In this document: positions 3,363-31,961 of the stretch, piece by piece | How positions within the stretch are numbered: the first letter of the stretch is position 1 | Layout of the letters: each line of letters starts with the position of its first letter | Virus record (IMG/VR): IMGVR_UViG_3300043434_001024 | Span: 1 to 34,138 of that record | Reading direction: 5' to 3' (one strand) | Source of the DNA: a virus | DNA length: 34,138 nucleotides | The notes under the pieces: model-generated | Databases searched by the model: none | What the model saw: the letters and a program-made list of their open reading frames with translations, nothing else | What the model was told of the DNA's origin: nothing | Translations under genes and position numbers: made by a program

Positions 3363-3483
3363 TGTTTGCCGAACTCCGGTGGCAACTGGAACAACACCGC
3401 GAACAGCGGGGTGTTCTACCGCAACTTCAACAACACGCCATCGAACACGAACAACAACTATGGCGCGCGGGCCGTCCGACTTC
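3363..3483 (+). repeat. DGR template repeat (TR)
   Basis: The invariant partner of VR (2774-2894). Its core contains 32 adenines, mostly in in-frame AAC codons. AAC and TAC/TAT codons cannot become stop codons by changes at adenine alone, so the template allows wide amino-acid sampling without truncation. Translated in the VR frame it reads SGGNWNN, SGVFYRNFNN, NNNYGARAVRL, an Asn-rich version of the target C-terminus. It lies between avd and RT and does not appear to be translated itself. Confidence 0.96.
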
Positions 3484-3617: not shown

Positions 3618-4631
3618 ATGCCCCACAAGATCGGCAATCTCTGGCCACAGATCGCCGACTACGACGCTCTGCGTGACGCCTGGCGCGAGGTGCGCAGCGG
3701 CAAGGGACACAAGGCGGTGGTGCTTCGCTACGAGAGCAACCTGGCCGTCAACCTCTCGCGCCTTGAGGCCCGCCTGCAGGACGGAAGCTATCGGCCGCGG
3801 GAGCACTACGAGTTCTGGGTCAAGGATCCAAAGCCGCGCCTCATCCAGGCCCCGTACCTGGAGGACCGGATCGTGCAGCACGCCGTCTGCAACGCCCTGC
3901 GCGTCCCGCTGCAGCAGCGCATGATCGCCCACACCTACAGCTGCCTGATCGGTCGCGGAACCCATGCCTGCTCTCGCCAGTTGCAGCGCTATCTCAAGAA
4001 CCGTCGCTGGCGTTACTACCTGAGCCTGGACCTTAGCAAGTTCTTCTATTCGATCAACCACGACAGCCTGTATGCCGAGCTGCAGCGGCACATCAAGTGC
4101 CCGCCCACGCTGGAGCTCCTCTGGCGATTCATCACCATCAACGGCACCGGCCGGGGCATCCCAATCGGGGCAAGCACCAGCCAGATCATGGCGAACATGG
4201 CTCTCAACCCCCTCGATCATTTTGCCCGCCGCGACCTCAAGCTCAGCACCTACCTGCGCTACTGCGACGACATGGTGGCGCTGTTCGAGACAGCTGCCGA
4301 TGCCCATGCCGCCCTGGCGGCGATCCGCAGCAAGGTGGCCAGGCTGGGCCTGCAGCTCAACAGCAAGAGCGGCGTCGGCTGGGTGGACGACGGAATCGAC
4401 TGGGTTGGTTACCGGCACTGGGCCGCCTACAAGCTGATCCGCAAACGTGCACTGAAACGCCTCAAGCGCCGCGCCAAGGGCGGCTGCAGGGTCGAGACCA
4501 CCATGAGTTACCTGTCCCATGCCAAGGAGACTGCCAGCCTCCGCCGAGTGGCCAGCATTCTCTGGACTCAAAACCGTAGGCAACGGCCTGAGATCAGGCT
4601 CTGGCTACGGCATCACCAGCCGCAGCGGTGA
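3618..4631 (+). CDS. DGR reverse transcriptase
   Basis: The enzyme (337 residues) copies the template RNA into adenine-mutated cDNA that replaces the variable repeat. The N-terminus (KIGNLWPQI) and length fit DGR reverse transcriptases. Visible motifs include LIQAPYLEDRIVQHAV near residues 74-89, catalytic Asp138 in LDLSKFFYSI, IGASTSQ at 183-189 (the DGR-type I/L-G-x-x-x-S-Q in place of the QGxxxSP of group II intron and retroviral enzymes) and catalytic YCDD at 215-218. The C-terminus is short and basic, without maturase or endonuclease domains, as expected for this class. All catalytic residues are present, so it should be active. ATG 3618 has no strong Shine-Dalgarno site; no better upstream start is seen. 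Confidence 0.95.
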   Translation: MPHKIGNLWPQIADYDALRDAWREVRSGKGHKAVVLRYESNLAVNLSRLEARLQDGSYRPREHYEFWVKDPKPRLIQAPYLEDRIVQHAVCNALRVPLQQRMIAHTYSCLIGRGTHACSRQLQRYLKNRRWRYYLSLDLSKFFYSINHDSLYAELQRHIKCPPTLELLWRFITINGTGRGIPIGASTSQIMANMALNPLDHFARRDLKLSTYLRYCDDMVALFETAADAHAALAAIRSKVARLGLQLNSKSGVGWVDDGIDWVGYRHWAAYKLIRKRALKRLKRRAKGGCRVETTMSYLSHAKETASLRRVASILWTQNRRQRPEIRLWLRHHQPQR

Positions 4632-4945: not shown

Positions 4946-5355
4946 TGAGCTGGCTGTCGCCCCTGTTGAATCTGGTGGTGGATCGGTTGATTGATCGGCT
5001 TGCCACGAAACTGGCCGAAAAGATCGACATTGAGCTGGAGGCGGCGGTTGACGCTGCTCTCGATCAAACCGAGATGAGGATTCGAGAGCTGCTCAACGGT
5101 GCCGAGGCCCGCCTGCAGGCGGCGGTTGGTCTGGGGCAGGGCGCTGCGCGCAGCGTTGTTGGGTTGGCCGGCCAGAAGTTGGAAGAGGCAGCGCAGGCCG
5201 CCGGCATGGTGCCGGTTTCAGCCGTGCAGAAAGCCTCCAAGGATGCGGCCACGGATGCTGTGGCCGTAGCAGCAAAGGAGATCCGGACCACGCTGCGCCG
5301 CCAGGCCAAAGCTGCTGGCCTGAGCCCTCTTTTCCGAGAGGTTCCTGATCGATGA
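4945..5355 (+). CDS. Helical hypothetical protein (136 aa)
   Basis: Starts at ATG 4945, overlapping the previous stop, and ends with an ATGA overlap with the 1327-residue gene, so the three form a translationally coupled chain. The protein is Ala/Leu/Glu/Arg-rich with heptad-like amphipathic helices: an N-terminal LLNLVVDRLIDRLATKLAEK helix, then a long Ala-rich stretch. It lacks a signal peptide and is too charged to be a true membrane protein. Possible roles are a scaffold-like or packaged virion-interior protein; context only. Confidence 0.7.
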   Translation: MSWLSPLLNLVVDRLIDRLATKLAEKIDIELEAAVDAALDQTEMRIRELLNGAEARLQAAVGLGQGAARSVVGLAGQKLEEAAQAAGMVPVSAVQKASKDAATDAVAVAAKEIRTTLRRQAKAAGLSPLFREVPDR

Positions 5356-8300
5356 GCCGTTACCAGGCCCTGCAGGATCGGCTCACCGCCATCGAAGCCC
5401 AGCTGGCGCTTTGTCCCGGTCCCAAGCCCCGTTGCCGTCCCACGCGCCGCCATGACGCGGCCGATCCGGTGTCGCCGGTGCTGCAGGCCCTGCTGGCGGA
5501 GGTGCTGCCCGGCGCGCAGCTGCTCGACTGGCGGCAGGATGGCGTCGGCCATGCCGGGCGGATGGCAGCCGATGGGCTTGTCTACCGCTTCCGGGTGGAT
5601 GGTGATGGCGTGGGCTACCGGCCCGCTTGGGAGGGGGTGCAGCAGAGGGGCTGGGAGCTGCGCTCCGATTCGTTCCTCGAGCTCCGCGCTCCGGCCGCCC
5701 GGATGGACTTTCGCCAGGGCAGCGGGGCCACTGCGGGGCAGAAACGCAAATGCTCCACCGGCTACAGCTGCGGCGCGGCCTGCATCTCCCTGCAGAAGGA
5801 ATGCCGGATCAGCCCCTCCAGCGCCATGGGCAAGGCCCGCCTGCGGCGACTGCAGCAGCTGGCGGCCGGGGGCGACAAGGCCGCCGAGGCCACTGCTTCG
5901 CAGGTGTCGGCCGCTCGGGATGTGGCTGCGGGAGAACGGCAGAAGGAGCGCACCACCAAGCGGGTGGAGAAGCTGCTGGCCCGGCCCGAGATCGCCGAGT
6001 ACCTGCGCACCGGCAAGCTGCCCGAGGCCGCCAGCGCTTCAACGGAGCCCGGCACCGTCCGCAACATGAAGCCCGATGAGATCGCTTTCGATCCATCCAG
6101 GTTTCAGTACAAGATCAACGCGACCGCTGGCACCGGCGATGTGGGCAGCCTTTCGGGCGTGCGCAAGTGGGACCCCAACCTCGCCGGCGTAATGAGCGTC
6201 TGGAAGGATCCCGCCGACGGCAAGGTCTACGTGGTGAACGGCCACAACCGTTTGAACCTGGCCAACCGCCTTGGTGCCGAAGAGGTGACCGTGCGGTTTC
6301 TCAACGCAAAGACTGCCACTGAGGCCAGGGCGATCGGCGCCATGCAAAACATCGCCCAAGGCGCCGGCACCCCGATGGATGCTGCCAAGTTCTTCCGCGA
6401 CACCGGCATCAGATCCCAGGCGGACGTGGAGGCCAGGGGCCTTCCCTTGCGCAGCGGCCAGGCGGAGAAGGGCCTCAAGCTCAGCAAGCTACCCGACGAA
6501 GTGTTCAGCGCAGTAGTGCGCGGTGATCTGAGCGTGAATCGCGGCGCGATCATCGGCGGCAGCGGCCTCGATGAGGCGAAGCAGCGGGAGGTGTTCAAGA
6601 TGGTTAAGGCCCGCAAGGGCATCGCCGATCAGACCCTGCTCGAGCTAGTGGAGCATGCCGCTGCCAGTGAGCAACGCACCCAGACCACGATGGACCTCTT
6701 CGGAATGAGCCAGGAGGCCACGGACAACCTGTTCACCCGGGCCAAGCTGGCCGCTGGCCTGAAGGCCAAGATCAGCAGGGAGAAGCGCCTGTTCGGCACC
6801 GTCTCTAAGGCCAGGGCCGCCTCCACCCTTGCCGAGAAGGCTGGCAACGTGATCAACCAGGAGCAGAGCGCCAGGGTGGCCGGCGAGGCCAGCGAGGCCC
6901 TGTCGGTCTTCGAGCGTCTGAAGAGCTCCAGCGGGCCGATCAGCTCCGCCCTCAACCGTGCTGCCGATCGGGTGGAGGCCGGCGAATCCGAGGCGAAGGT
7001 GCGGCAGGAGCTGGAGCGGGATGTGTTTGCCGCGGTGGAGCAGGAGCTGGTGACACTGGGCCTGCGCAAGCGGCCACGGGCCGACAGCCTGCAGCAGCGG
7101 ATCGACGCCCTCAAGCGGAAGTGCGCAACGGGCTACGGATGCGGGGCAACGTGCATCAGCCTGCAGAAGGAGTGCCGCACCACCCCGGGCAGTGCGATCG
7201 GCAAGGAGCGGCTCAAGCGCCTTATGGAGCTGGCGGCCGGAGGCAGCTCCAACCAGCGGGGCATCGGCACCATGAAGGCCAGCGAGGCCGGCGAGATGGC
7301 CCAGGGCATCACCGCCAGCCGGGCCCAGCGGGCAGCAGAGCTGCGGGGTGTGCGCCGGCCGATGCTCACCAACCCAGGCCGCCAGGCCCCAGGCCCTGCC
7401 CGCAAGCCGGCACAGCCCGGCCTCAACGCCCAGGACGTGACCACCAGCAGCCAGCAGGCCGCCTTTGCCAGGCAGCAGCAGCAGGCCGCCAAGGCCGCCG
7501 GGGATCAGGAGGGCGCCCAGGCCTGGCGCAAGGAGGAGCGCACGGTGGAGCGCAACCGACTGGCCAACGCCCTCGCCACCACCAAACAGAGCCAGAGCTC
7601 GCTGTTCGGCGTCACCGAATACGACCAGACCATGCCGCTGTTCCAGCAGCCTGCTGCTGCCGCCGGGCCGCAGCAGGCACCGAAGATCAGCGACGTGCTA
7701 CGCGCGACCACCGAGCAGCTGAAAGCCGCCGACGCCCGCCAGATGGGCAAGATCGCCGAGAACCTCTTCGAGGCCGGCTGGTCGATTGATCGCCGCACCC
7801 GCTACCGGGGCATGAGCAAAGACCAGGCGCGCGAGCAGTTCAAGGTGGAGTTCATGCAGAAGATGCAACAGCAGGCTGCCTCACCCGAAGCTGCCGCCAA
7901 CTCCGCTGCCATGCGCCAACGTGCCGGGGCCTCCGGCAGCGTCGCCGGCGCCATGAAGAGCATCCTCGAGGACATGAAGGCTCAGGACCAGCGGCTGGAG
8001 GACCTGCAGCGCCAATCCATCGATCTGCGCATCCAGGCGGAGGAGCAGTTTGGCGCCCAGGGCGGCGCGGATCCAACCCTGGGTGGTGGCCGGCCGCGGC
8101 GGCGCCTTGGCGGCAGCAAACGTCGACGTGATGCGGCTGATGACCGATTCGATGATGCGATCGATCGTCTGACAGTGCTGCGTGCTCGCATGGATCAGCG
8201 CTGCAGGCGACCCGATGGCAGCCATTACGGCACCAGCGGCGACTGCCGCCAGGGAATCCGGGCCGGCGTCGCGCGCGGCGTTGGACAAGGTTTCAGACGG

Positions 8301-9335
8301 CTGGGACGGCGGTTGCTGGGCCGTGGTGAGAAGGCATCAGAGGGAGATGTGATGGCCTCCGCTGCCCGCATTCAACAGCTGGCGGCCGCTCGCAAACAAG
8401 AAGAAAGCGATAGGCAGGCCAAAGAGAAGGCGCGCGAAGAGGAGATCCTCAGCCGCGGACCCCAGAAATGGGGCGTGAAGCAAGTGGAAAAGGAGGAGGT
8501 TCCAGGCGCCGGTGGCAAGGGCATCGTCTGGCACGAATCCCGATACGAGGTGCAGCTTGAGAAACCTCTCCGCCTGTCGGCACGACCCGGAAAGGAGCCC
8601 CGTCTGGTTGACAAGCTCTCATTCCAGGTCGCAATGGATGAGGCCAACGCCAAACCCATAGCCAGAAAGCTGGGAGAGCAGGGCATCGCTCTGAACAACA
8701 GGCAGGTCAACAATGCTCTGGAGTTGGCCTGGCTGACCGGCGTCGGTGGTGGCGAGGCCTTCATGGGTGCGGATCGGATTGCCCTGCCAAAGGACGTGGC
8801 CCAACGGTTTGCCAAGGAGGTCTCAAAGCAGGTGAAGGCTGTGATATCGAATCTGGAGGAGGGCCAGATCGTGATCTGCAAGGCCCATCAGGACGATGGC
8901 TATGGGGACAAACGCCAATCGCTCTACAAGAGGGCAGGATTCACCTTCATCGGTGGCACTGGGATTGCTGTGGTTCGCAACGGCAAGCTCAGCCGCATCG
9001 AAGGTGCCCGCGGCGATCGCCACGATGCAGGCGATGAGATCGATCTGGAAGGCCTGCTCTTTGCTCTCCTGACTCTCGGCAGCAGCGAGCGCCGCGATGC
9101 CGCTGCCGACATCCTGGATGCCCGAATCGACGCCCTCAAGCGGAAGTGCGCAACGGGCTACGGCTGCGGCAGCACCTGTATCAGCCTGCAGAAGGAGTGT
9201 CGCATCAGGCCCGGATCGGCGATCGCCAAGGAGCGGCTCAAGCGGCTCATGCAGCTGGCGGCCGGCGGCGCCCTGATCTACCGGCTGCTGACGGTGCACG
9301 GACCTGCTAACCACCCCATCCCCCTGGCCCGATGA
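5352..9335 (+). CDS. Giant multidomain 'polyvalent-like' protein with ddrB-type ParB domain and repeated Cys modules
   Basis: A protein of 1327 residues. A four-Cys module (C-x-TGY-x-CG-x-x-CISLQKECR) occurs at about residues 130-175, 591-640 and 1266-1310, each followed by a basic helix ending in LAAGG. Residues about 239-420 contain VNGHNRLNLANRLG (GHNR at 297-300) and NIAQGAGTPMDAAKFFRD, which fit the ddrB-ParB domain known from phage polyvalent proteins, large composites packaged in virions and injected to protect incoming DNA. Residues ~660-790 are Gln/Ala-rich linker. A different two-Cys motif (RCRRPDGSHYGTSGDCR) lies near 950. Residues ~1040-1217 form a separate globular domain ending in SLYKRAGF, faintly like GNAT acetyltransferases. 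The gene lies just before the head genes, supporting a role inside the capsid. Enzymatic activity is not shown. An internal scaffold or MuF-like role is an alternative. Confidence 0.8.
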   Translation: MSRYQALQDRLTAIEAQLALCPGPKPRCRPTRRHDAADPVSPVLQALLAEVLPGAQLLDWRQDGVGHAGRMAADGLVYRFRVDGDGVGYRPAWEGVQQRGWELRSDSFLELRAPAARMDFRQGSGATAGQKRKCSTGYSCGAACISLQKECRISPSSAMGKARLRRLQQLAAGGDKAAEATASQVSAARDVAAGERQKERTTKRVEKLLARPEIAEYLRTGKLPEAASASTEPGTVRNMKPDEIAFDPSRFQYKINATAGTGDVGSLSGVRKWDPNLAGVMSVWKDPADGKVYVVNGHNRLNLANRLGAEEVTVRFLNAKTATEARAIGAMQNIAQGAGTPMDAAKFFRDTGIRSQADVEARGLPLRSGQAEKGLKLSKLPDEVFSAVVRGDLSVNRGAIIGGSGLDEAKQREVFKMVKARKGIADQTLLELVEHAAASEQRTQTTMDLFGMSQEATDNLFTRAKLAAGLKAKISREKRLFGTVSKARAASTLAEKAGNVINQEQSARVAGEASEALSVFERLKSSSGPISSALNRAADRVEAGESEAKVRQELERDVFAAVEQELVTLGLRKRPRADSLQQRIDALKRKCATGYGCGATCISLQKECRTTPGSAIGKERLKRLMELAAGGSSNQRGIGTMKASEAGEMAQGITASRAQRAAELRGVRRPMLTNPGRQAPGPARKPAQPGLNAQDVTTSSQQAAFARQQQQAAKAAGDQEGAQAWRKEERTVERNRLANALATTKQSQSSLFGVTEYDQTMPLFQQPAAAAGPQQAPKISDVLRATTEQLKAADARQMGKIAENLFEAGWSIDRRTRYRGMSKDQAREQFKVEFMQKMQQQAASPEAAANSAAMRQRAGASGSVAGAMKSILEDMKAQDQRLEDLQRQSIDLRIQAEEQFGAQGGADPTLGGGRPRRRLGGSKRRRDAADDRFDDAIDRLTVLRARMDQRCRRPDGSHYGTSGDCRQGIRAGVARGVGQGFRRLGRRLLGRGEKASEGDVMASAARIQQLAAARKQEESDRQAKEKAREEEILSRGPQKWGVKQVEKEEVPGAGGKGIVWHESRYEVQLEKPLRLSARPGKEPRLVDKLSFQVAMDEANAKPIARKLGEQGIALNNRQVNNALELAWLTGVGGGEAFMGADRIALPKDVAQRFAKEVSKQVKAVISNLEEGQIVICKAHQDDGYGDKRQSLYKRAGFTFIGGTGIAVVRNGKLSRIEGARGDRHDAGDEIDLEGLLFALLTLGSSERRDAAADILDARIDALKRKCATGYGCGSTCISLQKECRIRPGSAIAKERLKRLMQLAAGGALIYRLLTVHGPANHPIPLAR
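5739..5868 (+). repeat. Cys module copy 1
   Basis: Encodes KRKCSTGYSCGAACISLQ and KECR, then the helix ending LAAGG. This is the most diverged of four copies at DNA level. The four cysteines have zinc-binding-like spacing (C-x6-C-x3-C-x6-C), but no experimental family is known to me. Confidence 0.85.
7080..7330 (+). repeat. Cys module copy 2 (long form)
   Basis: Gapless match to 16038-16288 at an offset of 8958 bases. It covers the preceding ADSLQQRIDALKRKC helix, the four-Cys motif, the LAAGG helix and a QRGIGTMKASEAGEMA extension. The conserved length (about 250 bp) indicates a duplication between the large gene and the island gene. Confidence 0.9.
9108..9268 (+). repeat. Cys module copy 3
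   Basis: C-terminal copy in the large protein. It shares an uninterrupted DNA stretch with copy 2 from the ATCGACGCCCTCAAG helix through the first cysteines, and encodes CATGYGCGSTCISLQKECR followed by the LAAGG helix. The protein ends soon after, so this module is a C-terminal cap. Confidence 0.88.
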
Positions 9336-14942: not shown

Positions 14943-15953
14943 ATGACTGACACCGCGATCGGGCAGAGCTTCATCAAGGCGCACCGCAGTGTGCTGCTGA
15001 TGACCCCCCTGCGCGCCCCCTGCCGGTATTTCGCCACCCGCGATGAGAGTGGCTTCATCACCCGGCCCACCCTCGATCCCGGCGATTGGGCCCGGGAGCT
15101 GCAGACCGTCAAGCAGGTGTCGTTCAATGTTGACAACAACGATCGGGAGTTTCGCCTGATCGGTGATGGCGGCTGGAGCGATGCGGTGACAACCGGCAGC
15201 AAGGTGAGCGCCTCGTTTGACACCTTCTTCTCCAAGCTGATCGTGCAGGGCGCCGCTGGTGGCTGCCCCGAGTTCCGCGGCGACTACTCCGAAGAGTTCG
15301 CGATTGTGGAGAAGGCCCGCTACGACACCGACTCCGAGGTGTTCGTGGAGATGTTCAAGGAGTTGGGCCGCAGCGGCGGCAACACCGGCGACTACGTGTA
15401 CGACTACGCCTGCTTCAACGCAGCGCTGCGCAACTACAAGGAGCCCCAGGCCGCCGAGGATCTGATCAACGTGACCTTCGACGGCATGAGCCGCGGCCGG
15501 GCGGTGTTCGGCCGTTTCAACGCCGGCAGCGCGCCGCTGGCCACCGGTGCGGTGCAGAGCGTGATCCTGAGCACGGCGCCGAACAGCGGCAGCCGCCGCT
15601 ATGCGGTGGTGCCGGCCGACAACGCCACGGCGGTGGCGGTGGGCAACAACCTCACCGTGACCTACACCAGCGATGGCACCGCACCGCTCACCCAGCTGGC
15701 GCTTGGCGCGGCCGATGGCAGCGGTTTCCGCCTCGAGGTGGCTTCCAGCGGCGTGCGCGTGCCGGCGATGGTGACCCTGGCGGGCGGCGTGGTGACGATC
15801 AACCCCTCCGCCGACCTGGCGGCCGAGACCATCTACCGCCTGGTGGTGCGCGATGGGGCAATCACCCAGGCTGTGAACGCCTCCCTGGTGGCCGATGCCG
15901 GCGGCATCCGCCGGCCGCTGGCGGGCTTCTCCACCACCTTCCGCACCGCCTGA
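14943..15953 (+). CDS. Major tail tube protein with C-terminal Ig-like domain
   Basis: 336 residues. Residues 1-205 look like a tail tube protein of long-tailed phages (ELQTVKQVSFNVDNND, FDTFFSKLIVQGA and LINVTFDGMSRGRAVFGRF). Residues ~206-336 form a beta sandwich ending VNASLVADAGGIRRPLAGF, with a central TYTSDGTAPLTQ segment, like the bacterial Ig-like domains that decorate the outside of tail tubes. The leader is C/T-rich. The gene is followed by a strong terminator hairpin, as expected for a high-copy virion protein. Confidence 0.85.
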   Translation: MTDTAIGQSFIKAHRSVLLMTPLRAPCRYFATRDESGFITRPTLDPGDWARELQTVKQVSFNVDNNDREFRLIGDGGWSDAVTTGSKVSASFDTFFSKLIVQGAAGGCPEFRGDYSEEFAIVEKARYDTDSEVFVEMFKELGRSGGNTGDYVYDYACFNAALRNYKEPQAAEDLINVTFDGMSRGRAVFGRFNAGSAPLATGAVQSVILSTAPNSGSRRYAVVPADNATAVAVGNNLTVTYTSDGTAPLTQLALGAADGSGFRLEVASSGVRVPAMVTLAGGVVTINPSADLAAETIYRLVVRDGAITQAVNASLVADAGGIRRPLAGFSTTFRTA

Positions 15954-16028: not shown

Positions 16029-16796
16029 ATGAACCGAGCCGACAGCCTGCAGCTGCGGATCGATGCCCTCAAGCGGAAGTGCTCCACTGGCTATGGGTGC
16101 GGGGCAACGTGCATCAGCCTGCAAAAGGAGTGCAGGAGCAGTCCCGGATCGGCGATCGGGAAAGAGCGCCTGAAGCGCCTCATGGCCCTGGCCGCAGGGG
16201 GCCCCTCCAGCCAGCGGGGCATCGGCACGCTCAAGGCCAGGGAGGCTGGGGAAATGGCCGGGGCTATCGCAGCAAGGCGCAGCCAGAAAGCGGTTAGTTT
16301 GCGGAGCACCAGAGTTCGCACAGAATCTCCCGTGCCAGGCGTTTATAGGCTCACCGCCAATGATAAAAAGAAAATCAGGATCCGTACCGAAGAAGAATAT
16401 GCCAAGGAGCTTGCCGCGTTTGATGTCAACAAAACACGCTTGGGCAAGAGCTTTGGCCTCAAAAAACGTGACTACGCTTCCAGGCTCCTCCGTTCAACAG
16501 AACCCTATTTATTAGGCAAGGGGCAAGGTGCACTTGATCTCGCCATGGGCAAGCCGTATGCAGGCCAAACAGCAGCCCAGCCGAGCTTCCAGAACGCCTA
16601 CAAACTGGGTTATTACACTGGCTACACAGAGCGAAGCAACCTAAAAGACCTCATCCAGCACAATGAAAACTTTGCGGCATTCCGCAAAACAACGGAACTC
16701 GACAAGAAACCACCCACACAGAGATTCTATGACCCAGGCGAAGACCCAAGCATGAGGGAGGCAATAGAAGACTTTAACGCAATCCTGAGAGGCTAA
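16029..16796 (+). CDS. Island protein: Cys module fused to unknown C-terminal domain (255 aa)
   Basis: Residues 1-90 copy the second Cys module of the 1327-residue protein (four Cys, LAAGG helix, QRGIGTLKAREAGEMA). From about residue 95 the sequence is unrelated and the DNA turns clearly AT-richer. The C-terminal domain is Lys/Tyr-rich with LGKSFGLKKRDYASRLLRS, AYKLGYYTGYTERSNL and DPSMREAIEDFNAILRG; I know no family for it. AAGGAG lies about seven bases before ATG 16029. Shared head, different tail is the pattern of modular effectors in which the common module may direct packaging or delivery. This is inference. The gene starts just after the tail-tube terminator, so it may have its own promoter. 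Confidence 0.8.
   Translation: MNRADSLQLRIDALKRKCSTGYGCGATCISLQKECRSSPGSAIGKERLKRLMALAAGGPSSQRGIGTLKAREAGEMAGAIAARRSQKAVSLRSTRVRTESPVPGVYRLTANDKKKIRIRTEEEYAKELAAFDVNKTRLGKSFGLKKRDYASRLLRSTEPYLLGKGQGALDLAMGKPYAGQTAAQPSFQNAYKLGYYTGYTERSNLKDLIQHNENFAAFRKTTELDKKPPTQRFYDPGEDPSMREAIEDFNAILRG
16038..16288 (+). repeat. Cys module copy 4
   Basis: Gapless partner of 7080-7330 (offset 8958). Conservation stops near 16290, exactly where base composition changes, marking a fusion joint. Confidence 0.9.
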
Positions 16797-19717: not shown

Positions 19718-19966
19718 ATGTTCCACCGCCTGCTGCTCACCCCCATGCAGAACGTGGTGGCGATCGACTGCCGGGGGCCCGACACCCCCAGCGAGCTCAC
19801 GGTGGGCATGCTGGTGGTGGAGGCCGGCGCCACTGATGCCGAGGTGCTCGTCACCCCGCCCCAGGGCGGCGCTGAGTTCTGGCTGACCCTGCCGGAGGAT
19901 GTCCTGAACCAGGGCCAGCGCTACGTTGGCTTCCAGATCCGTGCGGCCATCCGGCCTCTCACATGA
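19718..19966 (+). CDS. Small hypothetical tail-region protein (82 aa)
   Basis: From ATG 19718 the product is 82 residues, beta-rich, with VAIDCRGPDTPSELTVGMLV and FWLTLPEDVLNQGQRYVGFQ. It resembles one short beta domain and has no membrane segment. An ATGA overlap couples it to the tail-assembly chaperone gene, so a tail function is likely. Confidence 0.65.
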   Translation: MFHRLLLTPMQNVVAIDCRGPDTPSELTVGMLVVEAGATDAEVLVTPPQGGAEFWLTLPEDVLNQGQRYVGFQIRAAIRPLT

Positions 19967-20601
19967 CCGTTCCAGCGGGCACCGTAGCCAGTCGCCTTCT
20001 GGCGTCGATCCGCCTCGGCCACAAGATCATCGGCGGTGTGTTCCGCCTCGCCGTCTATGGCAAGGTGCTCCAGGGGGAAGCGGAGCTGATGGAACAGCAC
20101 GACCGGGAGCGCTGCGTTTCCCTCGGCAGCTTCTACCGCCTGGCCGATGGCATCGCCAAAGACACCGGCATGCCCATCGAGGAGGTGGACAAGCTGATCC
20201 AAGATCTCTCCAGGGTGGCCAACCCCAACGATCCGGATTCGCTGCAGGGCACCCTGCAAGCCTTCGGGCTGCTCAACTCCGACCCGCAGCGGCTGATCAC
20301 CTTCCTCTCGTCCCAGGCCACCATGGACGATCAGAAGAAGGTCCTCGTCACCACCCTGCTGATCGGCCGCGGCGACTACCTCGACCCCGACACCCAGGAC
20401 TGGGTGAAGCTGGAGCCGGCCACCTGGAGCGTGGACGACACCAGAAAAATGCCGGCCGATCTGATCAACGAGCTGCAGCAGTTCCTGATCGATGAGAAGG
20501 CGGCGATGACGGCGGGGGGAAAGCCGCCGGCGCCGAAGACGGCGCCGAAGCCCCGAGGCCGGAAGAACAGCTCAGCCGCGACGAGCACCGCGCCCGCGTA
20601 G
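19963..20601 (+). CDS. Tail assembly chaperone (G-type product)
   Basis: 212 residues, mostly helical (LITFLSSQATMDDQKKVLVT, INELQQFLIDEKAAM), with a Pro/Lys-rich C-terminus. It sits directly before the tape-measure gene, where long-tailed phages encode a G and GT pair that coats the tape measure during tail assembly. GGGAAAG at 20517-20523 in the correct codon phase allows a fraction of ribosomes to shift -1 and make the longer GT form ending at 21014. Confidence 0.85.
   Translation: MTVPAGTVASRLLASIRLGHKIIGGVFRLAVYGKVLQGEAELMEQHDRERCVSLGSFYRLADGIAKDTGMPIEEVDKLIQDLSRVANPNDPDSLQGTLQAFGLLNSDPQRLITFLSSQATMDDQKKVLVTTLLIGRGDYLDPDTQDWVKLEPATWSVDDTRKMPADLINELQQFLIDEKAAMTAGGKPPAPKTAPKPRGRKNSSAATSTAPA
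20517..20523 (+). promoter_or_regulatory. -1 ribosomal frameshift slippery site GGGAAAG
   Basis: The zero-frame codons are GGA (20518-20520) and AAG (20521-20523), so the heptamer reads G GGA AAG, the same sequence and phase as the phage lambda G/GT site. A preceding G-run (G GGG GGA, 20514-20520) is an additional possible slip site. The -1 frame is open from here to 21014. Confidence 0.88.
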
Positions 20602-21014
20602 AGGCCTACCTCAAGACTGCCCCCACCGACTGGGACGAGATCCAGCTGATCCTCACCAGCGGGCTGACGCAGGATCCCCGCTGGCATGCCGAGCGGTTTG
20701 CCTATCAGCCGGTGGATGCGGTGCTCAAGGCCTACGCCTGGGCCCTGAAGGAGAAGGCCAAGCGCACCAACGAGCTCAGCACCACCATGGCGCGGCTGGC
20801 CTCGATGGTGGAGATCGCTGCCTTCCCAGGCCTGGGCAACAAGGGCCGCAGCGAGGAGCAGTTCCTGCCGTTCAGGCTCACCGACGCCCCGGGCAAGAAC
20901 GCCCGCATCACCCAGGAGACGGCCGCCACGATCCGCTGGCTGCTCACCAACAACCAGATGCCGCCGAGGGTGCTGGTGGTGGCCCACGAGGAGCTGCAGC
21001 GCTCTGGCTACTGA
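20523..21014 (+). CDS. GT extension of tail assembly chaperone (made by -1 frameshift)
   Basis: The -1 frame continues for 163 residues after the slip. It has an acidic linker (AEDGAEAPRPEEQLSRDEHR), the conserved-looking PTDWDEIQLILTSGL and a helical end (ITQETAATIRWLLTNNQMPP). The joined product is about 350 residues (187 plus 163). No start codon or ribosome site is suitable at its beginning, which supports the frameshift rather than an independent gene. The stop lies 42 bases before the tape-measure start. Confidence 0.85.
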   Translation, partial: AAGAEDGAEAPRPEEQLSRDEHRARVEAYLKTAPTDWDEIQLILTSGLTQDPRWHAERFAYQPVDAVLKAYAWALKEKAKRTNELSTTMARLASMVEIAAFPGLGNKGRSEEQFLPFRLTDAPGKNARITQETAATIRWLLTNNQMPPRVLVVAHEELQRSGY

Positions 21015-21056
21015 CCAGCCCGGCGCCAGACTGACGCCAAGCGGTGATGATCCGGT

Positions 21057-24000
21057 TTGACGCAGAGCGGCGGCGGCGGCGAATACAGCCTGGGCACAGC
21101 CACGCTGACCCTGCGCGGCGACATGCAGCCGCTGGAGCGCGACCTGGCGCGCATGCGGGCGGTGATCGCCGAGATGGAGAAGCGGGGCGCGAATATCCCG
21201 GCTCCAAATATCCCGGCCCCCAAGCCGCCGCCGCCGGAAACGCAGCGCGGCTATCAAGGCCTGGCCGCAACCATGGAGGCCTTGCGCCGCGGCGTGCAGG
21301 GCGATGGCGAGGCCTTCACCATGCTCTCGCAGCAGCTGCGCGGCGCCAGCCAGGCGGCAGCAGCAGCTGGCGGCAGCGGTGGCTTTGGTGGCGCGACCAA
21401 TGCCCTGGCCGGGATGCTTGGGATGGCCGGCAGGGCGATACCGATCCTGGGCCAGTTGGGCCTGGCCGCCACTGGCTTGCAGGCGATTTTCGGGGGGCTG
21501 CAGGGCGCGGTCAACGCCGTGCTGGCCCCGCTGCAGCAGCTTTCGGCTGAGGCCGGCCGGCTCAACAAGCAGGTGGCGGAGGCGGGGATCTTCGCGGCGC
21601 AGTCGTTTGCGATCCTCGGGCCCGACGGGAAGTTGGTGGAAGGCACCGCCCGCCAGATGCAGATGGTGCGCGGTGCGATCCTGAAGGAATACCAGGGTAT
21701 CCAGAAGGAGGTGGCCAACATCAGCGGTGCCACCGCCAGCGAGATCTACGACGGCTTCAACATCATCCTCCAGAACGTCAGTGCGCTAGGGGAAAAGGGC
21801 ACCATGGAAAACTCGGCCAAGCTGGCCACCAGGCTGGCCGCCGGTATGAACACTCTCAATATCCCTACTTTCCAACTGCGGCAGGAGGCAAACGCTCTGC
21901 TGATGGGGAATATCGGACCTGATGCGATGCTGGCCAAAAAGCTAGGCATCACGAACGACGACGTGCGACAGCAGCAAGCCAAGGGCACTTACTACGACTT
22001 TCTGATGGGGAAGTTGGAGAAGCTCTACGAGGGCCAGAAGGTGCTGGCGCTGAGCCTCGAAAACGTGAAGAGCAACTTTGACGATGTGAACCAGGCAATC
22101 TCCTCCGAGGCAGGCCAACCCCTGGAGCGAGACACGGCGAGCATGATGCAGACCATCCTGGTGACCTTCAAGAATCTGCAGGGCAGCTTCAGTGGGTTCT
22201 TTAAGAGCATCGCCGAGGCTGTTGGGCCGATCATCAAGGTGTTTGGCCCCGTTATCTCAGTTCTGACATCCATCGGTGCCATCGCCTCATCGGTCGGTCG
22301 AGTGATCATGGATGTCGTAGGTGTGGCCACGGCCGCGCTGGGTTTTGTCCTTCAACCGGTCCTGGTTACAATCGCCAGATTTGTCGAATTGATTGCCAAG
22401 GGGTGGGAAAACATCGCCAATCTAATCGGTGGAGCAATCTCTCCGATCAAGGCGCTGTTTAACGCCAGTGGCGACGCTGATGTTGATGGCGTCAATACAT
22501 TTTTTGACAGACTGATAGAAGGCGCGGAAACCGCCGGCAAAGCAATCGACAGCTTTAACAAGAAGTGGGCGCAAGCAGTGCTGAACTTTCGACTGTTCAC
22601 GATGCGCGCCGCAATGACGGCAGACGGTGCATCAGAGAAGGAGATTCAGGAAGCCCAGCTCAACTTCAGAGAGAACTTCAACCGGCAAACCAACCTTGCC
22701 GAGCCAGTGGAGCTGCGCAGCCTCCAACTGCCGGCTGATGTGTTGGAGCGGATTGAAGCCAGAGAACAGCGACTTGGATCGGGGGCAACCCGGGCGTTGA
22801 ACATCTCCAAGGAGTGGTCAGAGATCAAGCAGAAGGCCTATCAGAACGAAATCAAGGCGCTGGAGCAGGGCCTCACCCTGATGAACAAGCAGCGGGAAGT
22901 TGCCGAGGCAATGAGCGCTGTTGCCGCTTCTCGCCGCGCCCTGGAGGCTCGTGGCTACGAGCTGGGCGTGCAGGTGGCTTTCAGCCCGGAGGCCAAGGCC
23001 ACTGCAGAGGCCCGCCTGGCTGACCTGAAGCTCAGGCAGGAGAAAGAAGCGATTGCCGAGCGGCGGGGGATCCTCCAGACCGAGAGGGAGCTGCAGCAGC
23101 GGCAGATGCTGATCCAGGAGAAGCAGATCAAGATTCAGCAGGAGCAGCTCAAGATCCAGCTGGCTGAGGCTACAGCCGAACAGGTGAAAGCGCAGAAGGA
23201 GCGCGACGCCTTGCTGCGCAGTCAGAAAAACACCCCCCTCTACAGCGCGGAATGGGGCAAGAATCAAGAGCTGCTCAGCATCAATGCTGCCGAGCTGACC
23301 CGCATCAACGCCAAGCTGGAGGGCAGCCGGCGGGCCGTGCAGCTGGCATTCGAGGCCGAGGGCCAGCTGGGCACCATCAACGGCCTGGAGGCACAGCGCC
23401 TGGGTCTGCAGGAGCAGCAGCTCGACATCCAGGGCCAGCAGGCCCAGTACACCCGTGAGCAGCAGCAGCTGCTGGCCGAGATCAGCGAGGCGGAGCAGAA
23501 CATCTCGAACATGCTCGACGAGATCGTCAACAAGGAGAACGCCAAGCGGCGAGAGCTGGAGGACCAGAGCGAAGAGATCAACCGGCAGAACACCCTCCTC
23601 GAGCGCCAGCGCCGGCTGGAGGAGGCCCAGGCCGAGTTGGCCATGACGCGCGAGAAAGCCGCGGTGCAGGCCGCCGAGCGCCTTGCGGAAGTGCAGGAGC
23701 TGCAGGACCGGGCCCGCAGCGGCGGCGGCACTGCGGCGGTGATCGAGGCACAGATCGCAGCGGCCGCGGCCGGCGTGAGCGGGATGGAATCAGCGGCGGC
23801 GGTGCAGCAACGGCTGTTCGACGCCAAGGAACAGCAGATGGCCCGCGAGCACCAGCTGGCGCAGAAGCAGCTGGAGGTGCAGCACAAGATTGAGGAAATC
23901 AAACTGCGAAGCGAAAAAATAGCGATGGAACGGCAGAAGGTTGATATAGCCATCGAAAGAGCGAGACTGACGGCAGAGCTGGGCCGGCTCAGGCTGGGCC

Positions 24001-26231
24001 AGATGAAGGATGAGATCGCCCCACGGCTGGCAGGGTCCAGCAGCGTGCCAGCGCTGGCAGGGGTTGCACGGCTTCCGGGCTCCATCACTGGCCGGCTGGA
24101 TGCCTCCGGGCAAAACGGGGCAGACATGCCAGTAGGGCGAAACAACGAAATCTTCAGCTACCACAATGGCGTGGTGACCGAAATAAGCAGAGCAGGCAAC
24201 AACGGAAACTACACAGTTATTGAGTTCATTGACGATCTCGGCAACAAGCTAGAGGCTACCTATAGCCACATGACGGCATTAGTGAAAGTCGGCCAGCAAG
24301 TGGTCGGGGGCCAGGTGCTGGGCCGCTTTGATGCTTCAGGCCGCACGTCTGGCCCACATAACAGTGTTGACATCAATAGCCCAGGAACAAATGGGGCTCT
24401 GCAGCGCAATGCAGAAACAGCGGCCGCCCGTCGCAGTGCTGACCTTCTGGTTACAGGGAAGGTGCAGGGCCAGGCCGGTGGTTCCAGTGTCGGTGCCCCT
24501 CCTGCGCCGATCCTGCCGGCGGCGCCTGCGGAGGCAAACCTGGCGGGCTATTTGAAGCGACTCAGCTACCTGGAGACACGAATCAGAAACGTGCCCAACG
24601 CAGAAGGCAGCGGCGCACAGGGATATTTCCAAACCAAGAATGCCTTCCATCAAGAGGCGACCGCTGCATCAGGTGGGATGAACTCGCGATCAGCAAACTA
24701 TGCTGAGTCAGCAAAAGCCGTGGCGGCATGGATCAAAAAGCACCGCCCTGTTGCCTATGACCACATTGCGGCCGGCAGGTTTGATCAGGCCGACGCGATC
24801 CTGCGTCAAGGAACCTGGCCATCTCTCCCTGGGGGATCTCAGGCACAAGCGGATGCCATCCAGCTGGAGGCCCGCAAGTTCCTGCCTGCTGCTGGCTCAG
24901 TTGCCAGCACCGTTGCCGCCGTCGGGGGCGTTGTGGCACCCAGCACCGCCAACCAGGCAGAAGCGCTGCAGCAGAGCCTCAAGGACGTGGATTCTGCCGA
25001 AACGCGGCTGGGCAAGCAGATGGAAGACCTCACCCAGGCCATCAAGGATCTGGACAACCTGTTCAGCGTGAAGGAAGAAAACCTCACCGAGCAGCAGCTG
25101 GCAGAGCGCGCACAGCTGGCCTACGAGAGAACAAAGGCCCAGCTCACTGCCGAGGTGATGCGAACTCCTGAGGGTCGGCTGGCGATCTCCACCGGCGACG
25201 CGGTGAGCGGCAGCATCAGCGGCTCCATTTCCGGTGCCCTGCAGGCCCTGCTCACTGGAGGTGATGTGAAGGCAGCGGTGAGCAGCGCGCTGGCGCAGGC
25301 GGGGCAGACGCTGATGCAGGCCACGCTGGACGCACTCCTCAACCCGCTGCTGTCCCAGCTGCAGGGCGGGATCGTGAAGGCTTTCACCGGGATCGACATC
25401 CAGGGCAGAGCACTGCAGATGGCCGCAGCGGCGCACCAGAACGCTGCAAGCGCCCACCAGGCCGCGGCGGTGCAGGTGGCGAATGCTGGTGCAGCGGTGG
25501 CAGCGGCAGCCGGTGCATCCGGCGCTGCGGCCGTGGGCGACAGCGCCAATGTGTGGGGCACCTTGGCCAGCAAGATCCCCAGCCTGATCAGCGGCTTTGC
25601 TGGCCTCGGTGGGGGCCTGGATCTGGCTTCTGGGTTTGCTTTCGACAGCGTGATTTCGGGCCCTGATTTCGTTGCTGGCCCCATGCTGGACGTGGGCAGC
25701 ATGGGTCTGAGCTACACCCCGGGCTTTGCAGGTGGGGGGGATATCCAGTACGGCCTCGACTACCTGGTGGGCGAGAAAAATGCGGAGATCGTGCGGTTCA
25801 ACAAGGCCGGCGGCAAGGTCTACAGCAACCGGGCGCTCACCAAAGCGTTGGGAGTGCCGTTCCAGCGCAGCCCAGGCGGCGGCGCTGAGGTGGCGGACGG
25901 TGGTGGCGATTCGCTCGGCATCCCCTTCATGGCCCCCGGGCCCAACCAGAGTGCTGGCGGCCGAGCCGCGCCGCCGATTCCCTTCCTCAAGTCATCTCCT
26001 GCCGGGGGTGGCATGGCAGGGTCTGGCCCTGGTGGCGCCCCCCCCAGCGCCATGGCCCCCTCCAAGGCGCTGCGGCTCAAGGTGGAGACAACGGTGATCA
26101 ACGGCGTGGAATACGCCACGGTTGAGCAGGTGCACCAGGCCGCCGCCGCAGCCGCTGCAGCCAGCCGCGATGCGGTCTACAACGACCTGCGCAACAACCC
26201 CTCCATCCAGCGCAGCGTGGGCCTGGGTTGA
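21057..26231 (+). CDS. Tape measure protein with degenerate M23 and lysozyme-like domains
   Basis: The 1724-residue protein sets tail length and is ejected into the host. It starts at TTG 21057, with a stop just upstream, giving LGTATLTLRGDMQPLERDLA, the usual N-terminal helix. Residues ~385-450 are strongly hydrophobic, as in membrane-inserting tape measures. Residues ~580-975 are long Gln/Glu/Arg coiled coils. Residues ~1020-1120 look like an M23 endopeptidase fold (HNGVVTEI, ATYSHM, VGQQVVGGQVLGRF, GPHNSVD), but the second metal-binding HxH is HNS and the first motif is missing, so it is probably inactive. Residues ~1160-1260 resemble a lysozyme/transglycosylase-like domain (YLETRIRNVPN, GAQGYFQ). 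The C-terminus is Gly/Pro-rich. ATGA couples it to the next gene. Confidence 0.92.
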   Translation: MTQSGGGGEYSLGTATLTLRGDMQPLERDLARMRAVIAEMEKRGANIPAPNIPAPKPPPPETQRGYQGLAATMEALRRGVQGDGEAFTMLSQQLRGASQAAAAAGGSGGFGGATNALAGMLGMAGRAIPILGQLGLAATGLQAIFGGLQGAVNAVLAPLQQLSAEAGRLNKQVAEAGIFAAQSFAILGPDGKLVEGTARQMQMVRGAILKEYQGIQKEVANISGATASEIYDGFNIILQNVSALGEKGTMENSAKLATRLAAGMNTLNIPTFQLRQEANALLMGNIGPDAMLAKKLGITNDDVRQQQAKGTYYDFLMGKLEKLYEGQKVLALSLENVKSNFDDVNQAISSEAGQPLERDTASMMQTILVTFKNLQGSFSGFFKSIAEAVGPIIKVFGPVISVLTSIGAIASSVGRVIMDVVGVATAALGFVLQPVLVTIARFVELIAKGWENIANLIGGAISPIKALFNASGDADVDGVNTFFDRLIEGAETAGKAIDSFNKKWAQAVLNFRLFTMRAAMTADGASEKEIQEAQLNFRENFNRQTNLAEPVELRSLQLPADVLERIEAREQRLGSGATRALNISKEWSEIKQKAYQNEIKALEQGLTLMNKQREVAEAMSAVAASRRALEARGYELGVQVAFSPEAKATAEARLADLKLRQEKEAIAERRGILQTERELQQRQMLIQEKQIKIQQEQLKIQLAEATAEQVKAQKERDALLRSQKNTPLYSAEWGKNQELLSINAAELTRINAKLEGSRRAVQLAFEAEGQLGTINGLEAQRLGLQEQQLDIQGQQAQYTREQQQLLAEISEAEQNISNMLDEIVNKENAKRRELEDQSEEINRQNTLLERQRRLEEAQAELAMTREKAAVQAAERLAEVQELQDRARSGGGTAAVIEAQIAAAAAGVSGMESAAAVQQRLFDAKEQQMAREHQLAQKQLEVQHKIEEIKLRSEKIAMERQKVDIAIERARLTAELGRLRLGQMKDEIAPRLAGSSSVPALAGVARLPGSITGRLDASGQNGADMPVGRNNEIFSYHNGVVTEISRAGNNGNYTVIEFIDDLGNKLEATYSHMTALVKVGQQVVGGQVLGRFDASGRTSGPHNSVDINSPGTNGALQRNAETAAARRSADLLVTGKVQGQAGGSSVGAPPAPILPAAPAEANLAGYLKRLSYLETRIRNVPNAEGSGAQGYFQTKNAFHQEATAASGGMNSRSANYAESAKAVAAWIKKHRPVAYDHIAAGRFDQADAILRQGTWPSLPGGSQAQADAIQLEARKFLPAAGSVASTVAAVGGVVAPSTANQAEALQQSLKDVDSAETRLGKQMEDLTQAIKDLDNLFSVKEENLTEQQLAERAQLAYERTKAQLTAEVMRTPEGRLAISTGDAVSGSISGSISGALQALLTGGDVKAAVSSALAQAGQTLMQATLDALLNPLLSQLQGGIVKAFTGIDIQGRALQMAAAAHQNAASAHQAAAVQVANAGAAVAAAAGASGAAAVGDSANVWGTLASKIPSLISGFAGLGGGLDLASGFAFDSVISGPDFVAGPMLDVGSMGLSYTPGFAGGGDIQYGLDYLVGEKNAEIVRFNKAGGKVYSNRALTKALGVPFQRSPGGGAEVADGGGDSLGIPFMAPGPNQSAGGRAAPPIPFLKSSPAGGGMAGSGPGGAPPSAMAPSKALRLKVETTVINGVEYATVEQVHQAAAAAAAASRDAVYNDLRNNPSIQRSVGLG

Positions 26232-31562: not shown

Positions 31563-31961
31563 ATGGGCGTCAGGAACACGACCCAGAGCGATGTGTACTG
31601 GAATGGCTCGCTGGTGGGGAAGATTACGGATGTGACGCCCACGGTCTCCCGCGATGAGCTTGAAACCACAGGCATCGGCCAAACCGCGGGCACCGTGGCC
31701 AAGGGGGTGCGGTCCACGCAGCTGAGCTGCACCTTCCTCTACGACCCGGACAATGGCGCCGCGTGCGCAATGGCCAACAGCATCTGGGACGACAACGAGG
31801 CCCTCGACACCCTGCGCATCGTCACCCGCCGCGGATCCAGCCGTGGCGACTTCACGATGGAGGTGCTCACGGCCTCGCTTGGTGCCCCCGTGCGGGTGCG
31901 GGAATTGATCGCCTGCTCCCTCAGCATGCGGGTGAACGGCGACATGAGCGGTCGCTTCTGA
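31563..31961 (+). CDS. Second tail-tube-like protein (132 aa)
   Basis: A single beta domain: VYWNGSLVGKITDVTPTVSR, TQLSCTFLYDPDNGA, TLRIVTRRGSSRGDFTMEVL and IACSLSMRVNGDMSGRF. This is the pattern of tail-tube-fold proteins (lambda gpV/HK97 type), smaller than the tube protein at 14943-15953. It sits after the hub rather than before the tape measure, so it may form a distal tube ring or baseplate element. The start at ATG 31563 is fixed by a stop at 31548-31550. Confidence 0.7.
   Translation: MGVRNTTQSDVYWNGSLVGKITDVTPTVSRDELETTGIGQTAGTVAKGVRSTQLSCTFLYDPDNGAACAMANSIWDDNEALDTLRIVTRRGSSRGDFTMEVLTASLGAPVRVRELIACSLSMRVNGDMSGRF

Follow-up and report, generated by a model that had tools for sequence, protein, structure and literature searches.

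Background and the analyzed locus

In long-tailed phages, a frameshift within the tail chaperone genes is described as a widely conserved feature, and proteins G and GT of phage lambda are known to arise in this way (PMC5009743). The heptamer used by lambda, GGGAAAG, is reported as one of the three most efficient slippery sequences measured in E. coli together with stimulators (PMC4066793), and it is listed among the most shift-prone heptamers in this host when stimulators are present (PMC4066793, PMC5009743). Tools to predict such frameshifts exist, among them PRFect (PMC10885494). In lambda, the chaperone gene is followed by the gene of the tape measure.

Here, we analyzed a locus of similar organization in a virus of cyanobacterial type, the IMG/VR virus record IMGVR_UViG_3300043434_001024. 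The whole stretch of 34,138 nucleotides is called the window in what follows. It had been predicted from its sequence to hold a pair of the G/GT type at a site identical to that of lambda. Our comparison of the window with its relatives makes it very likely that a programmed -1 frameshift produces, from one gene, a short G-like and a long GT-like protein forming a putative tail assembly chaperone pair. The features of the locus are the following.

19963..20601, + strand: zero-frame open reading frame (ORF) of the G-like protein, 212 amino acids without a shift, taken from the ORF list
20499..20503, + strand: weak Shine-Dalgarno-like motif GGCGG, 13 nt upstream of the heptamer, a candidate stimulator
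20517..20523, + strand: slippery heptamer G GGA AAG, read from the sequence near the end of ORF 19963-20601
20523..21014, + strand: -1 frame (T-like part), whose translation would add 163 residues after a slip
20528..20547, + strand: possible stimulatory hairpin of 8 bp, 4 nt after the heptamer
20712..20714, + strand: in-frame GTG, a legal start codon and the would-be start of a separate gene of 100 amino acids
21057..26231, + strand: predicted tape-measure protein of 1724 amino acids, with a TTG start and a Pfam M23 peptidase domain

A slippery heptamer between two open frames

The heptamer sits within a G6A3G run (20514-20523). The zero-frame codons at the site are GGG (20515), GGA (20518), and AAG (20521), which puts G GGA AAG in the correct phase, as had been proposed. 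The -1 frame is open from position 20496 to the stop at 21012-21014. Its earliest ATG, GTG, or TTG is the GTG at 20712, and its earliest start of any kind under genetic code table 11 is the ATC at 20640, which lies within the conserved T domain. The original prediction of an open frame of 163 residues lacking a start of its own thus agrees with what we observe upstream of 20712. Because this frame is open and has no ATG, GTG, or TTG before that position, a slip at the heptamer would yield a product of 187 + 163 = 350 residues, versus 212 without the shift.

Heptamers of this sort can occur by chance. As a plain string, GGGAAAG is found four times in the window for 3.7 expected from shuffled sequences, i.e., at chance level. 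In a screen with a list of 11 strong slippery heptamers, the GGGAAAG at 20517 was the sole match among the 6897 in-phase positions of 10 long ORFs. When the overlap of the two frames was resampled with synonymous codons, a strong heptamer arose by chance in 13% of the draws. Hence, a single sequence is not decisive, and it is the conservation across relatives that decides.

We infer both slippage itself and its rate. The majority of ribosomes would complete the G-like protein of 212 amino acids. In a minority of them, the P- and A-site tRNAs paired with GGA AAG would shift back by one base to pair with GGG AAA, and translation would continue into the GT-like fusion of 350 amino acids, whose reading frame stops 42 bases ahead of the tape-measure gene. 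If the two proteins act as they do in lambda, the tape-measure protein would be coated by the short form, with the T part bringing in the tail tube subunits.

Conservation of the site in relatives

Searches for relatives identified 20 loci with the T part and 15 with the G part, the two sets overlapping. The G-like homologues span 93 to 22% identity, and the T-like part could be aligned over 26 distinct sequences. In the clade of the window, GGGAAAG is in phase in all 10 distinct overlap sequences (the window included), with G parts down to 44% identity. The closest relative with a name is the Synechococcus phage S-CBS4, and an outward search from it yielded 23 loci and, in a further round, 220 confirmed ones; the best 80 of these were taken into the survey. 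A first genome scan for relatives found none; a second one revealed a single relative, in a contig labelled Rhodobiaceae. Identical sequences were removed before counting, as was a locus whose contig ends before the site (L087), leaving 91 distinct sequences.

A canonical heptamer was found in phase in 88 of the 88 distinct sequences whose two frames both reach the site (88 of 91 overall). The types are AAAAAAA (66), GGGAAAG (11), GGGAAAA (7), AAAAAAG (3), AAAAAAC (1), and none (3), i.e., the letters vary by lineage while the canonical in-phase pattern stays at a conserved position. The original prediction had named, among the observations that would speak against it, close relatives keeping both frames after loss of the heptamer; this count contains no such case. 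Among the three sequences lacking a heptamer, L122 comes from a contig that ends before the site. L107 has merged frames and a garbled N-terminal part, apparently because of sequencing indels. In L111, an upstream deletion joins both parts in one frame of 321 codons, such that the fusion would be made without shifting; this merged frame could be genuine or could stem from faulty assembly. Both L107 and L111 speak against the shift being needed in every case.

In a tree of the T part, the 11 GGGAAAG sequences form one clade (100/100), and the distribution of heptamer types requires at least four changes. The A-type heptamers are preceded by GCA in 67 of 67 alanine codons, versus 158 of 678 upstream, a preference that is partly circular since the sequences were classed by their heptamer.

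The pair in Synechococcus phage S-CBS4

S-CBS4, which is present with two records, is the only named phage matching the T part (32.9% identity, E-value 3e-8). Its gp032 and gp033 are homologous to the pair of the window, with about 33% identity in the T part and about 22% in the G part, and its major capsid protein is 47% identical to that of the window. This isolate genome shares with the window the -1 layout and the order from the stop of T to the tape-measure gene. The heptamer differs: it is A AAA AAA in S-CBS4, in the correct phase, and G GGA AAG in the window.

In the deposited record, the region holds gp032 and gp033 as separate, unjoined hypothetical proteins, and a tape measure follows. 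As deposited, gp033 is truncated and starts within the conserved domain. This is what had been anticipated for the window, namely that plain gene finding would miss the second frame or call it as a shortened gene. For gp032, the annotated start (L077 4486-4555) comes 23 codons after an ATG. Because the conserved alignment begins at this ATG, the deposited start of gp032 is probably wrong. This suggests that the deposited annotation of S-CBS4 is in error in two places. In the literature searched, which did not comprise the original paper on S-CBS4, we found no report of a frameshift in its chaperone region.

The coding constraint switches frame at about the heptamer

If the two frames are joined at the heptamer, the positions free to vary should change there. 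Among 14 sequences of the S-CBS4 type, 62, 20, and 12 columns (of 80 each) vary in the part before the site, the 62 being zero-frame third positions. In the T-only region of the same sequences, the variable columns are 50 of 140, 25 of 141, and 129 of 141, and here the 129 are third positions of the -1 frame.

To locate the switch, we fitted a change-point on third-position variability, using 27 sequences in four gap-free groups (14, 6, 4, and 3 sequences). The pooled change-point coincides with the heptamer (best 0, range 0 to +10 nt). Placing it at the stop of the zero frame is worse by 57 log units, and placing it at GTG 20712 is worse by 174. Taken alone, the S-CBS4 group gives a best value of -3 (range -5 to +11), the L014 group +18 (-2 to +47), the window clade +27 (-30 to +45), and the GGGAAAA group of four sequences +24 (21 to 32), which excludes 0. 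Since both frames are under selection in the overlap, single small groups place the switch poorly.

Candidate stimulators

The window has two candidates for elements that may help the slip. The 36-nt hairpin region has a folding z of -2.69 in the window, and a mean of -2.67 (range -4.5 to -1.06) across the 11 distinct sequences of the GGGAAAG clade. It includes one compensatory pair, with covariation that is not significant. The longer downstream fold has a z of -0.85 in the window. The hairpin was dropped as a family-wide stimulator, given this covariation result and a longer downstream fold that is unremarkable in five of six representatives.

The Shine-Dalgarno-like motif is present in 8 of the 11 sequences of the GGGAAAG clade versus 12% under synonymous resampling, these sequences being related to one another. 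S-CBS4 carries such an element, GGAGGTGA, also 13 nt upstream of its heptamer. Over all two-frame sequences the motif is found in 81 of 88, and the case for a family-wide signal is weakened by the synonymous null, which already gives about 66% for the A-type. Neither the hairpin nor the Shine-Dalgarno-like element was significant by covariation. Either might help the slip in some lineages.

More broadly, these patterns could reflect an extensive, unannotated family of chaperones whose heptamers and helpers have been swapped like modules: G GGA AAG plus a hairpin 4-5 nt downstream in the GC-rich clade of the window, A AAA AAA plus a Shine-Dalgarno-like element in many relatives, and G GGA AAA in a third group. 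At least one lineage, L111, might then have fused its frames and no longer require a short form made separately. We regard this as speculative and rather unlikely.

Alternative explanations

The -1 frame could be a gene of its own, translated from GTG 20712 or by re-initiation, next to an accidental heptamer. GTG is a legal start codon, and gp033 of S-CBS4 is annotated in just this way, with a start inside the conserved domain. Yet the 110 nt from the stop of the zero frame to GTG 20712 vary only at third positions of the -1 frame in four close relatives (4/4, 8/8, 5/5, and 7/7 changes); in the more distant L013, 8 of 13 changes fall at such positions. The window has no ATG, GTG, or TTG before 20712, and the first start codon is placed variably in the relatives. 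Because the coding constraint in the -1 frame begins upstream of it, GTG 20712 is probably not a real start. A separate gene beginning at this codon was rejected on the penalty of 174 log units given above, and we consider two independent genes highly improbable.

A single gene could also be read in two frames if the polymerase, and not the ribosome, slipped on a homopolymer. The A7 runs of 66 of the 88 relatives and the G6 run of the window would offer the opportunity. However, the site is no more than GGG AAA (GCGGGAAAG) in 5 of the 11 sequences of the GGGAAAG type, and seven other sequences have GGGAAAA; runs this short give a polymerase little opportunity to slip. What is retained is instead the X XXY YYZ pattern in phase, and transcriptional slippage seems very unlikely to us. 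As for the loss of a base from the G6 run during sequencing or assembly, which would have split a single gene, homopolymers are error-prone and L107 shows damage of that sort. But the two-frame layout is repeated in 20 loci on separate contigs, in the isolate genome of S-CBS4, and in lineages whose heptamers differ in sequence, which leaves this explanation with a practically negligible probability. The programmed ribosomal frameshift is the reading that we retain below.

A putative chaperone pair before the tape-measure gene

The gene pair directly precedes the tape-measure gene, in the window as in S-CBS4. The original prediction placed a tape measure 42 bases after the pair, and the next long ORF does begin there, at TTG 21057 after the stop at 21014. 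From its length, its position, and its M23 domain, ORF 21057-26231 is probably the tape measure. The gene at the equivalent place in S-CBS4 is annotated as such and matches phrog_2335 (E-value 6.6e-155), with no BLASTP similarity between the two tape-measure genes (E-value 0.28). TTG 21057 seems to be the start of the ORF; an out-of-frame ATG lies 10-11 nt upstream (21044-21059), a context that recurs in several relatives.

Neither the G-like nor the T-like frame matched a named chaperone family in PHROGs, Pfam, or NCBIfam, the zero-frame ORF having no match of any kind there, and solved structures searched by profile yielded no significant match. The structural model of G has a pLDDT of 78, that of T a pLDDT of 46, too poor for use. 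When the G model was used for a fold search, the PDB yielded nothing at an E-value of 0.001 or better, and within the same threshold there were two unnamed BFVD matches with low TM-scores of 0.40 and 0.32 (query length). The best VIA-align Z is 7.4, covering 77 residues of an unrelated protein, a value in the range that the tool calls common. A chaperone role is suggested by the place of the pair before the tape-measure gene and by the frameshift itself. The two-frame pair stands as originally predicted, with a canonical heptamer in all 88 sequences. The term chaperone is an assignment by position, with no family match and no clear fold match.

Other features of the window

Several ORFs around the pair have matches to phage protein families. 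The small ORF 31563-31958, after the tape measure, matches the major tail protein family phrog_10528 (E-value 8.9e-6), and ORF 14943-15953, before the pair, has a weak tail-tube match (E-value 0.011). Among the tail genes, ORF 18213-19238 matches the phage regulator-type phrog_129 (E-value 2.4e-23) and the BstA-type phrog_6287 (E-value 7e-8). The window also carries a diversity-generating retroelement, whose variable and template repeats of 121 nt (2774-2894 and 3363-3483) differ at 23 positions, 22 of which are A in the template. ORF 1373-2905 ends with the variable repeat, and a reverse transcriptase (3618-4631, Pfam RVT_1) adjoins the repeats. Finally, the cysteine-containing motif C[AS]TGYxCGxxCISLQKECR is found three times in ORF 5352-9335 (positions 5751, 7122, and 9147) and once in ORF 16029-16796 (position 16080).

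Comparison with known systems

These results provide a lead on the function of two unannotated genes, in a family with at least 220 loci confirmed by one scan. The change of the heptamer letters within an arrangement that stays the same amounts to a natural experiment on slippery sequences and stimulators in these hosts.

The site is identical to that of lambda, as originally predicted: gene G of lambda (NC_001416) has GGGAAAG, likewise close to where its first frame ends and in the same phase, and a tape-measure gene comes next in both. The -1 extension after the heptamer is 144 residues in lambda and 163 in the window. The zero frame continues for 25 codons beyond the heptamer in the window and for 5 in lambda, and the junction with the tape-measure gene is a 42-base gap in the former and an 8-base overlap in the latter. 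With hhalign, neither part of the pair resembled its counterpart in lambda (probability of 0.2 percent for G and 0.5 percent for T). The pair of the window would work like lambda G/GT with no homology implied, because it has neither a chaperone-family match nor profile similarity to G or T. Another known system is that of the g-t frameshifts in HCTV-1, -2, and -5, which differ from the virus of the window in being haloarchaeal. Frameshifts in tail chaperone genes are thus known, and what is new is a probable pair of this kind in a family that is unnamed in PHROGs, Pfam, and NCBIfam.
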